Source of the DNA: Leptolyngbyaceae cyanobacterium C42_A2020_001
GTDB lineage: Bacteria > Cyanobacteriota > Cyanobacteriia > Leptolyngbyales > Leptolyngbyaceae
Length of the DNA: 64,000 nt
Direction: 5' to 3'
NCBI GenBank assembly: GCA_015272515.1
Contig: JACYLN010000064.1
Span: forward strand, 62,001 to 126,000
How positions within the stretch are numbered: position 1 is the stretch's first letter; each line of letters starts with the position of its first letter. The notes below the pieces were generated by a model. That model worked only from the letters and a program-made list of their open reading frames with translations. It was not told the origin of the DNA and searched no databases. Positions 6,505-8,862 of the stretch are shown piece by piece. Both the position numbers and the translations under genes were made by a program.

Positions 6505-6747
6505 TTAATACCTAGAGCGCGATCGCGCTGACAAAACCTGATCCGACTGTAATGCTTGAACCGCAGAAATCGGAACTGTGACAACTGCGATTGTTTCTCC
6601 TACTGCATTAAAAACCTCTAAAATACACCCCTGATCACCACCATTGGGATGAGGTACAAAATCAACAAGTACCGCAATATCTCCTGCCTTTAGCTGTTCT
6701 TCTGGGACATCACGAGTTAGAGTAACTTCCTGATATAGCTCAAGCAT
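6505..6747 (-). CDS. DUF4926 domain protein
   Basis: 80 residues. The pattern LYQEVTLTRDVPEEQLKAGD...GETIAVVTVPISAVQAL matches the small beta-barrel DUF4926 family (ELLxxVxLxxDlPexxLxxGd at the start, VAVVTxP near the end). No activity is established for the family. Its first eight bases overlap the end of the DUF6883 gene (ATGCTTGA), and genes of these two families are found next to each other elsewhere, which suggests a functional pair. A second, diverged DUF4926 gene lies about 1.3 kb upstream in the same islet. Confidence 0.8.
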   Translation of the reverse strand: MLELYQEVTLTRDVPEEQLKAGDIAVLVDFVPHPNGGDQGCILEVFNAVGETIAVVTVPISAVQALQSDQVLSARSRSRY

Positions 6748-7081
6748 TACTATGAGGCTCCCTAAGTGGTTTTAGCGTTACAAACTGAAATTTATTATCA
6801 ATCTTCCGCTGTATCCATATTGTAGCTACTGACAAAGTTGTCTGATTCACTCCATCTAGGTCTCCATCAACACGATAAAATTGACCATACTCATTTTCCC
6901 CATCCTCTACTGCCTCTATTGAACTAACTAAACTTCTGATAGCTGCTTTCAAAGTTTCTGGATTTTTTTCTGTAAAACCTGCTTGAGCTAAAAATTGGGA
7001 CTTGTCATTACGGGACTTAAAAATAAGAAAATACTTTGTAAGTTTTGGATCGAGTATTTCAGCATCCGCAGGAATTTTCAT
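6740..7081 (-). CDS. DUF6883 domain protein
   Basis: 113 residues. The order IPADAEILDPKLTKYFL, then KSQFLAQAGF, YGQFYRVDGDLDGVN and VATIWIQR resembles DUF6883: a conserved (I)DPRKLxxYLL start, a KAxFF region, and a GxxxxVxGxLxGPNG...VxTVW strand pair. Biochemical function is unknown. It overlaps the following DUF4926 gene by eight bases. Pairing with DUF4926 has the look of an effector/partner or toxin/immunity unit, but that is inference from size and arrangement only. Confidence 0.7.
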   Translation of the reverse strand: MKIPADAEILDPKLTKYFLIFKSRNDKSQFLAQAGFTEKNPETLKAAIRSLVSSIEAVEDGENEYGQFYRVDGDLDGVNQTTLSVATIWIQRKIDNKFQFVTLKPLREPHSNA

Positions 7082-7108: not shown

Positions 7109-7771
7109 TTAGGTAGCTGCATTCCTCAACTGCTGAATAAAGTCCTTGTAATATTCTTCATAAGACCCTTCAAAATTATCCATCCCTTTTTTGGTTAAAT
7201 AGCCGCTATGTTTAGCTGTCTTTGGATCTTCAATATAGCTATAGATATACTTTGGGTAATCTGGATCTTCATGCCAGGTAATATTAAAAGCTGCAAGTTT
7301 TGGAAAGAATGTCATGTTTGCATAAGCTTTTATATTGTCATGAATCCACCAGGCTAATGCTGTCCAATCATGAGTGCGCTCATAGTATGGAATAAATGAA
7401 GTTACAACAACACAAGCTGTTGCCCCCATGAATCCTTTTGAATCTCGCCGATCCCAAATGTGACCTGCATAATTCTTTTCATTAGCAGCACAGTTATACT
7501 GATTCTTATTTTCTGCACCTTTCTTATTCACTGCACAAGATCGATAAGCCGAACGAATAGTAATTCGACCCAAAGCATCTTGAATGGGTTCAAGAACATT
7601 TTCGCAAAGTTGTTTTCCAACTTTGATAGCTAACCCAGGATCATCAGGAATATTGGGAATTTTTTCAATCTGAGAAATTTCAGAATACAAAAATTCACGC
7701 ATAAAAAAGCTTTTGGAAAGTTGCACTCGCCCAAGCTCTTCTAAGGCTTTTACTGATTCTGGCTTTTTCAT
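7109..7771 (-). CDS. M15-like zinc peptidase (putative)
   Basis: 220 residues without a signal peptide. SKSFFMREFLYSEI near the start and ITIRSAYRSCAVN (about 70-82) resemble the substrate side of VanY/M15 carboxypeptidases. YAGHIWD (H104) and FNITWHEDP (H167) would be two zinc ligands. The usual HxxGxAxD aspartate is not obvious: D107 or C120 (GATAC) may take its place, so catalysis is uncertain. Family members with this pattern are known as uncharacterised cyanobacterial proteins. A cell-wall peptidase inside a cluster of small unknown genes could be an effector. Confidence 0.55.
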   Translation of the reverse strand: MKKPESVKALEELGRVQLSKSFFMREFLYSEISQIEKIPNIPDDPGLAIKVGKQLCENVLEPIQDALGRITIRSAYRSCAVNKKGAENKNQYNCAANEKNYAGHIWDRRDSKGFMGATACVVVTSFIPYYERTHDWTALAWWIHDNIKAYANMTFFPKLAAFNITWHEDPDYPKYIYSYIEDPKTAKHSGYLTKKGMDNFEGSYEEYYKDFIQQLRNAAT

Positions 7772-7783
7772 AGTATTTATTCA

Positions 7784-8044
7784 CTAACTCAATTGAAGCT
7801 CTTGATGGAGAATCAGGAATTCGTTTGCGGCTAAGGTTGCTGTGGCATACTCGCGCCCTTGAACGTCGGCAAACTCGATTAGGTAATGTTCGTTGTCGTT
7901 CTGATGAAAAATATGAACGATCGTTCCCACTAAACCACTGGGTAAGTGATCTACAGAAACAACATTCGTCTCTACCAGCGATAAGCGATCGCTGGGTAAG
8001 TCTTCTAAAAGTTCAACAGTATCTAACAACTTGGGTTGATTCAT
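7784..8044 (-). CDS. DUF4926 domain protein, second copy
   Basis: 86 residues beginning MNQPKLLDTVELLEDLPSD and containing GLVGTIVHIF and YLIEFADVQGREYATATL, which is the DUF4926 pattern with an insertion after the first strand. I start it at ATG 8044, where family members begin. ATG at 8095 is also in frame and would add 17 residues and overlap the upstream gene by 32 bases. It is not a recent duplicate of the copy at 6505: the two share the fold pattern but little identity. Confidence 0.7.
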   Translation of the reverse strand: MNQPKLLDTVELLEDLPSDRLSLVETNVVSVDHLPSGLVGTIVHIFHQNDNEHYLIEFADVQGREYATATLAANEFLILHQELQLS

Positions 8045-8063
8045 CACTTGATAAACGCTACCT

Positions 8064-8429
8064 CTAAAACCTTTGTAAGTATTTGTATTGCTCATCTTCT
8101 ATAGTTTTGCGTAGTTTTTGCAGAGTGGACAAACGATAAATCATCTGCTGATAGTCTGTTTTGGAAGCAATTTCTGATAAGGCTTCTAGAACTAAATCAC
8201 TCTCTTGAACGATCGCATCTCGAAAAAAATCACTAAACTTTCTGCGATAATTTCCCTCAAGCTGAATAACTGGAACTGTTACAGATTCTCCGTCAATTGT
8301 CATATCGTGTTCTTCAGATTTGCCAATTCTGGAAAATTCTGATCGAGCTAACCATTGATAAAACTCGGTAGACACTTCTATACTTTTTACTTCCTCTTTA
8401 TCTTGTGAGAAAAAGATGATATCAATCAT
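8064..8429 (-). CDS. Unknown 121-residue protein
   Basis: I do not recognise a family. The protein starts MIDIIFFSQDKEEVKSIEVS and becomes helical (FYQWLARSEFSRIG, then SDFFRDAIVQESDLVLEAL and a basic, charged C-terminal helix QKLRKTIEDEQYKYLQRF). No signal peptide or membrane segment is visible. The start ATG at 8429 has an excellent GGAGGAG ribosome site, so it is very probably expressed. It sits between the nuclease-like pair and a DUF4926 gene, with gaps under 20 bases. An immunity or partner role for a neighbour is possible but unsupported. Confidence 0.65.
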   Translation of the reverse strand: MIDIIFFSQDKEEVKSIEVSTEFYQWLARSEFSRIGKSEEHDMTIDGESVTVPVIQLEGNYRRKFSDFFRDAIVQESDLVLEALSEIASKTDYQQMIYRLSTLQKLRKTIEDEQYKYLQRF

Positions 8430-8446: not shown

Positions 8447-8635
8447 TTATGGTTTTATCAGATCCTCTTCAGGAATATTTTCTGCATAGGCAACATCATT
8501 TTCAGTAAGAAATTGTTTAGCTCTATTAGTAATCTTGCCAGTTGTTAAAATGCCTGATGTGGAACCTCTAGCAACAATTTGCCGAACAACTGTTAAACCA
8601 ATTTTTTCACGAGTCTTAATTTCAATGTACGGCAT
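8447..8635 (-). CDS. Small protein resembling the C-terminal half of Mrr-type nucleases
   Basis: 62 residues. IEIKTREKIGLTVVRQIV, then GILTTGKITNRAKQFLTEN and EEDLI, resembles the second half of the Mrr catalytic domain (VQxKxxxxxVGxxVVRxL... GIxVTTxxFTxxAxxFA... LIDGxxL). E5-I6-K7 would be the ExK part of the PD-(D/E)xK site. The first half of such a domain is missing here and may be supplied by the gene immediately upstream, two bases away in another frame. The match is by eye and the protein is unusually short. Confidence 0.55.
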   Translation of the reverse strand: MPYIEIKTREKIGLTVVRQIVARGSTSGILTTGKITNRAKQFLTENDVAYAENIPEEDLIKP

Positions 8636-8637
8636 TA

Positions 8638-8862
8638 CTAGGAATTGTATCTGATGTTAATCTCGCGAATAATCTGTTTAACTCGTGGTTCATCCTCCAA
8701 GTTAGGATAAAAAATATCCCCATTCGCATCATTTCCGATCGTCCGCTGACATGAGACTCCCTCCTTCTCCAAAATACCAATAAGCCAACCAATCAAATCA
8801 CGATGAATTTGATAATGGTGAATCATCTTATCTTCATCGGTTTCCCATTCTTGGTTTGCCAT
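8638..8862 (-). CDS. Small unknown protein, possible N-terminal nuclease half
   Basis: 74 residues: an acidic start, a helix (IHRDLIGWLIGILEKEGV), then a short region TIGNDANGDIFYP and a basic helix. LIGWLIGILEKEGV followed by GDI could correspond to the helix and metal-binding Asp that precede ExK in PD-(D/E)xK nucleases, which would make it the partner of the next gene. This is tentative. The start ATG at 8862 has GAGGT eight bases upstream. It is the first gene of the islet operon, about 100 bases after gltB ends. Confidence 0.55.
   Translation of the reverse strand: MANQEWETDEDKMIHHYQIHRDLIGWLIGILEKEGVSCQRTIGNDANGDIFYPNLEDEPRVKQIIREINIRYNS

Follow-up and report, generated by a model that had tools for sequence, protein, structure and literature searches.

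Two adjacent small genes, A and B, most likely encode a natively split PD-(D/E)xK nuclease that is neither a member of the Mrr_cat family nor the product of a broken gene. We consider it likely that the two proteins each supply half of a single PD-(D/E)xK phosphodiesterase domain, that they are translated separately and co-fold, and that the active site forms on their assembly. PD-(D/E)xK nucleases normally hold motifs II and III in one chain; as judged from the alignments, motif II (x-D-x-x-x) would here lie in A and motif III ((D/E)-x-K) in B. The genes were found in a stretch of 64,000 nucleotides from the Leptolyngbyaceae cyanobacterium C42_A2020_001 (contig JACYLN010000064.1), hereafter the window, and together with a third gene, C, they form a conserved linked cassette:

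Gene A, 8638-8862, minus strand: 74 aa; predicted to supply the nuclease domain's N-terminal half, with predicted helix 1, strands 1-2 bearing the motif N-D-x-x-G-D-I (Asp49) and an extra helix; equivalent of residues 1-74 in the modelled fusion from locus L035.
Gene B, 8447-8635, minus strand: 62 aa; predicted to supply the nuclease domain's C-terminal half, with a predicted I-E-I-K strand (Glu5, Lys7) followed by helix-strand-helix-strand; equivalent of about residues 91-153 in the modelled fusion.
Gene C, 8064-8429, minus strand: 121 aa; the cassette's constant third member.

A closes with a stop codon whose last base is 8638, and B opens with an ATG at 8635, leaving a gap of two bases between genes in differing frames, and a TAA closes the frame of B eight codons 5' of its ATG. 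This arrangement of two tiny open reading frames is as the original prediction described it, and all of the motifs named there are present (NDANGDI in A; IEIK, TVVRQIV, GILTTGKIT and EEDL in B); in an independent homologue search the open frame around the 62-residue B came to 69 codons. In the window sequence a GGAGGAG box is found 5' of C and a weaker GAGG 5' of A, with no site resembling a ribosome-binding site visible 5' of B, a combination which would fit translation of B being coupled to that of A. Homologues from other genera (best E 3e-30 for A and 4e-16 for B), together with dN/dS values of 0.06-0.54 among relatives (11 A pairs and 8 B pairs, some with few changes; two further B pairs were saturated, and the window copy is in no pair), argue that A and B are not chance open reading frames. 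The B of the window is without the acidic tail, of the type ESEAQEEG, which ends B in many of the split relatives.

Among 292 sampled cyanobacterial genomes, A was found by profile in 12 (nine with a single-sequence query), B in 12 and C, again by profile, in 10. A and B occur together in 11 of these genomes and are adjacent in 11 of 11 (A being truncated in the L008 genome), so the linkage of homologues on which the original prediction depended is present; C was never found without B in any of the 292. The exceptions are decayed: the L019 genome has a truncated A alone, and the L011 genome remnants of B and C alone. A scan of contigs from GTDB r220 species, which used the fixed A pattern T..(N/D)D..GDI and so misses relatives without it, yielded 18 loci, all 18 with the order A-B-C on one strand; 16 are cyanobacterial, one is in a MAG assigned to Thiomargarita (L034) and one in a MAG assigned to Litorilinea, Chloroflexota (L037). 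The cassettes of L034 and L037 were possibly transferred or mis-binned. No relative of A was found on viral contigs in a pattern-based scan, plasmids gave no match to the fusion of locus L009 and phages none to the window A; NucS_C loci from the phylum of Litorilinea were weak and were set aside.

With L003 and L022 taken as one contig (length and positions identical) and counted once, there are 26 intact loci, namely the window, eight loci from the genome search (L002, L004-L007, L009, L010 and L012) and 17 from the scan (L022-L025 and L027-L039). Outside these 26 stand the decayed loci L008, L011, L019 and L026, the last with one in-frame stop in B. The third gene of L010 and L012 is named C by its position and a weak likeness, and the C profile (A4) misses both at E 0.001.

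Of the 26 intact loci, 23 have A and B as two genes. In the other three, L009, L035 (Kamptonema) and L036 (Microcoleaceae), A and B share one open frame of 151-153 codons; these are the fused homologues that the original prediction had proposed to look for. L009 and L035 are very alike, so the fusions may represent few events or one. A tree of C was rooted with L010/L012, a distant outgroup of uncertain homology to C. In it the fusions cluster together in the midst of split loci, the one other member of their group being the second C copy of the split locus L006; given this grouping, the split layout looks ancestral in this sample. These results bear directly on whether the window simply holds a frameshift remnant of a broken single-chain nuclease gene. 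Such a view could draw on the existence of single-frame versions and on the decay seen in some relatives, but the prevalence of the two-gene layout, the purifying selection among pairs of relatives and the placement of the fusions inside the split loci render it extremely improbable, and the earlier claim that this is no simple frameshift of one gene holds.

The most conserved positions of both proteins include those of catalytic type. Ile4, Lys7 and Glu52 of B are invariant in all 27 B sequences, and at position 5 a single sequence has Asp where the other 26 have Glu, so that (E/D)-x-K is kept in 27 of 27. Among the 27 A sequences His20, Thr41, Gly48 and Asp49 are invariant and Asp45 is present in 26; the scan pattern fixed Thr41, Asp45, Gly48 and Asp49 by construction in 18 of these rows, and because it held G-D-I the conservation on the A side amounts to fewer independent rows than 27. 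Gly48-Asp49 is nevertheless kept in all nine A rows from outside the scan and in L022, which was also found pattern-free as L003, and His20 and all of the B positions lie outside the scan pattern.

The fold was predicted from alignment A5, in which the L035 fusion stands first, followed by L036, 16 B rows and 10 A rows. A first joint alignment (A3) set B rows onto A; the row subset was then chosen, before any fold, for correct placement by MAFFT (IEIK on IEIK, GDI on GDI), with five of 15 A rows dropped (L022, L023, L028, L029 and L034), and the A rows of L033 and L039 never entered. The AlphaFold2 model has a mean pLDDT of 89.5 and a pTM of 0.84, the modelled chain being the fusion of a relative and not the two chains of the window. 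Its elements are helix 9-33, strand 38-40, strand 50-52, helix 55-72, strand 93-97, helix 104-112, strand 115-120, helix 126-134 and strand 138-140, and this order (a-b-b-a-b-a-b-a-b) is the PD-(D/E)xK order of elements with an extra helix after strand 2; the predicted fold of the A-B fusion is that of PD-(D/E)xK. The original prediction assigned the first helix and an Asp to A, and in the fusion model A would provide these as well as the first two strands and the extra helix. By fusion numbering Asp49 adjoins strand 50-52, and Glu95 and Lys97 lie within strand 93-97, so that in the predicted model the motif II Asp falls by strand 2 and the motif III (D/E)-x-K in strand 3, as in the PD-(D/E)xK superfamily; the 46 residues from Asp49 to Glu95 accommodate the extra helix and a linker between the two motifs.

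Structural comparison by VIA-align 2 gave AF1548 as the best match (3.1 A over 96 aligned residues) with Z 8.1, a value near 8 being not decisive alone, as it may mean just a common arrangement. EndoMS came second (Z 7.3 and 6.8; 3.4 A and 102 aligned residues for the best), and the first 14 rows are made up of AF1548, EndoMS, VC1899 (Z 6.6), Cdn1 (6.4 and 5.7) and RNA polymerase chains E (RPB5; from 5.8); VC1899, Cdn1 and RPB5 we take to have the PD-(D/E)xK fold. MspJI (5.2), Avs4 and Hjc (5.0) follow at Z 5.2-5.0. The first rows outside the fold are presumably HcgD (5.3) and MJ0927 (5.0), and chaperonin, glutamate dehydrogenase and other rows are below 5. The entry 5gke, which we take to be EndoMS of Thermococcus kodakarensis, aligns through residues 125-240 to residues 9-150 of the model, across both halves. 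The catalytic residues of this enzyme are D165, E179 and K181 (PMC7343888), and D165 and the model Asp49 are each 40 residues into the aligned range.

Foldseek searches with the fusion model were less selective. Nothing in the PDB fell below E 0.001; the best match, MspJI (0.023), was tied with a TRiC chain, and the list was mixed, including chaperonin apical domains and glutamate dehydrogenases, to which the beta-alpha-beta part of B is common. Against BFVD the best match (E 0.0025) is unnamed, and six of the first 11 carry a functional name, four of them restriction endonuclease (best E 0.0055), one an Mrr-domain protein and one a Holliday junction resolvase; UMP synthase and deaminases are among the lower rows. 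The frequency of RPB5 chains among the structural matches, and the likeness of B alone to plain beta-alpha-beta domains, raise the question of whether A-B has a restriction-endonuclease-like fold serving as a non-enzymatic binding or structural module, as in RPB5, within a regulatory cassette. We regard this as unlikely, since the catalytic-type positions are among the most conserved in A and B, and since B, in which the scan pattern fixed no position, varies at these positions only from Glu to Asp across its 27 rows, as metal-dependent catalysis predicts.

Sequence profiles were compared with those of Mrr. A profile of cyanobacterial Mrr sequences itself finds MspJI (E 3e-6) and AF1548 (8e-5) in the PDB, and weakly Hjc (0.24) and RPB5 (0.46), so that the fold and sequence lists converge. 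A first hhalign test used 30 narrow Mrr domains: B scored 19.7, above all 100 shuffles (maximum 16.3), whereas A-B joined (AB) scored 20.6, below the shuffle maximum of 23.8, and A scored 11.8, near the shuffle mean; with this set the reversed Mrr profile gave 22.1 for AB and 23.2 for A, more than the true profile. The second test was a second attempt, with a diverse Mrr set of 20 newly fetched domains and 10 of the first 30. In it A aligned to the Mrr part from helix 1 to strand 2 over 29 columns, with Asp49 on the Mrr Asp (score 20.5, probability 13%), and B to the part from strand 4 into the following helix over 18 columns, short of I-E-I-K (21.8, 25%). A, B and AB each exceeded 100 of 100 shuffles of the Mrr profile, and A and B exceeded 150 of 150 shuffles of their own columns; the reversed profile of this set gave A 17.2, B 13.0 and AB 14.2, and for six unrelated families the highest scores were 16.4 with A, 14.8 with B and 17.0 overall. 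A and B thus appear, weakly and on aligned profiles, to fall on complementary parts of Mrr.

The possibility that A and B are independent interacting subunits, for example a toxin and its control protein, sharing no domain and simply tethered in the fusions, has in its favor that two-gene operons of small proteins are common and that neither half belongs to a known family. We hold it to be distinctly improbable: the fusion yields one confident model (by its pTM), the VIA-align matches run through both halves, and the halves align in order to the complementary Mrr parts. The original proposal of a nuclease split over two genes is largely supported by linked homologues, by the three fused loci and by matches to the PD-(D/E)xK fold in the model, in BFVD and in the second hhalign test.

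The label "Mrr-type" that it attached to the pair survives as a description of the nearest look and fails as a family assignment. Scores of 20.5-22.6 (probability 12-25%) against Mrr compare with 100.0 (99%) between two true Mrr sets, so the profile similarity seen between true Mrr subfamilies is lacking here, and separate profile comparisons put the probability at 11% for B and 0.9% for A; such low probabilities place the relation to Mrr at superfamily level. Pfam Mrr_cat (PF04471) has no match at E up to 1 to A, B or the L009 fusion, and NCBIfam NucS gives just E 0.1 for B (11.6 bits against a cut-off of 216) and nothing for A. The window A, B and C have no significant match in Pfam, NCBIfam or PADLOC; in PADLOC-DB 2023 there is none at E up to 1 for these three or for the L009 fusion, and HMMER profiles of alignments A5 and A2 found nothing convincing among PDB sequences. 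Matches below cut-off were set aside, namely wHTH-PRTase_assc (B), Peptidase_S24 (A) and SeqA_N (C), as was a sub-threshold Pfam match of the L010 B to Cpn60_TCP1 (E 0.003), which is better than any Pfam Mrr match. We infer that A-B works like a split nuclease of Mrr/NucS type; by the tests run, it is a member of neither Mrr_cat nor NucS.

Gene C gave a confident model (pLDDT 91.6), which has no fold match beyond helical hairpins and no known family. C, like the AAA+ gene that some relatives carry, did not figure in the original prediction. Locus L006 has tandem copies of C (1710-2078 and 2119-2484), the second of which clusters with C from the fused locus L036, apart from its neighbor. An AAA+ ATPase is encoded directly upstream of A in eight of the 26 intact loci (L002, L005, L010, L012, L024, L028 of Dolichospermum, L029 and L031). 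The two that were scanned, from L005 and L010, match PADLOC IetA (E 2e-19 and 3e-27) and TRIP13 (E 5e-16 and 3e-17), part of this likeness being common to AAA+ proteins in general. The known partners are a protease for IetA and HORMA proteins for TRIP13; in contrast, the optional AAA+ here goes with A-B-C. A search for it at E 1e-20 in 18 cassette genomes (L036 left out) gave only four matches, all linked to the cassette and all in genomes among the AAA+ model's own rows; the window genome has no such AAA+ gene at this threshold.

A purA-like gene precedes the cassette in 13 loci, some of them decayed (L006-L009, L011, L025, L026, L030, L033, L035, L036, L038 and L039), and a bL25-like gene is on the other side in 10 of these 13; both gene names are our presumption, read off the sequences. 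Its stable place beside purA speaks against recent mobility at those loci, whereas the patchy occurrence, the decayed copies and the two occurrences outside cyanobacteria point the other way. Ten neighbors, picked by hand and with no background set, include some that resemble defense or toxin-antitoxin genes, such as a cytosine methylase (L031), an HNH protein (L022), a RelB-like antitoxin (L028) and an AAA_21 ATPase about 2.4 kb away (L024); such neighbors hint at defense or toxin-antitoxin surroundings. In the window, two DUF4926 genes (7784-8095 and 6505-7081, both minus strand) lie 3' of the cassette on its strand, one of them adjoining a DUF6883 gene, and the frame at 7109-7771 (minus strand, 220 aa) has a weak match to Peptidase M15_3 (E 0.009, below cut-off).

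As a natively split nuclease, the pair would work as follows. The A and B chains would fold together into a single domain, a heterodimer in the split form, with an active site complete on assembly alone. A would contribute Asp49 of G-D-I as a metal ligand, and perhaps also His20, the residue of helix 1 that never varies, and B would give Glu5 and Lys7 (I-E-I-K); the product is presumed to cleave nucleic acid, and the two-base gap between the genes may help equal output of the halves. C would be a constant partner, most likely a subunit for substrate recognition or control, and the AAA+ protein, upstream in about a third of the intact loci and lacking in the window genome, might remodel or load the complex. 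A role in defense or genome maintenance is a guess, which leans to defense on account of the patchy occurrence with decayed copies. More tentatively, and short of what we would call probable, C (with AAA+ where present) could act as an assembly switch that controls the joining of A and B, so that a signal, for example infection, would permit cleavage; if so, this would be an uncatalogued immune or genome-surveillance cassette of cyanobacteria. A lineage with motifs II and III stably divided over proteins of ~60-75 residues would offer a ready-made split nuclease, with natural fusions as an internal pointer to how the halves join, in a small A-B-C(-AAA+) cassette for whose proteins A, B and C the Pfam, NCBIfam and PADLOC libraries gave no family.

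Searches of the open-licence literature yielded no description of a PD-(D/E)xK domain or nuclease that is natively split. Comparison is made here with three known systems. Like Mrr-type nucleases (PF04471; AF1548, 1y88; MspJI, 4f0p), A-B has the same order of elements, an Asp motif after strand 1 and an LTTG-x-(I/F)-T-x-x-AK segment after strand 4, and AF1548 is its best structural match; Mrr, however, is a single chain whose motif reads Q-x-K, without exception in the 12 sequences of Mrr alignment A7, whereas A-B consists of two chains, reads E-x-K and has an additional helix after strand 2 and before strand 3. NucS, a single-chain enzyme that forms homodimers, has a DNA-binding domain at its N terminus, and A-B has nothing resembling that domain. 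The C-terminal domain of EndoMS/NucS is close to A-B, with the Z of 7.3, a D...E-x-K triad and, by the residues given in PMC7343888, an identical offset of the Asp.

The third system is T7 endonuclease I, a PD-(D/E)xK enzyme that forms a domain-swapped homodimer, in which residues of both subunits complete each active site. A "domain-swapped region of 1fzr" is named in PMC1913061. T7 endonuclease I is a homodimer of one gene product, whereas the domain proposed here would be assembled from two different proteins, A and B.
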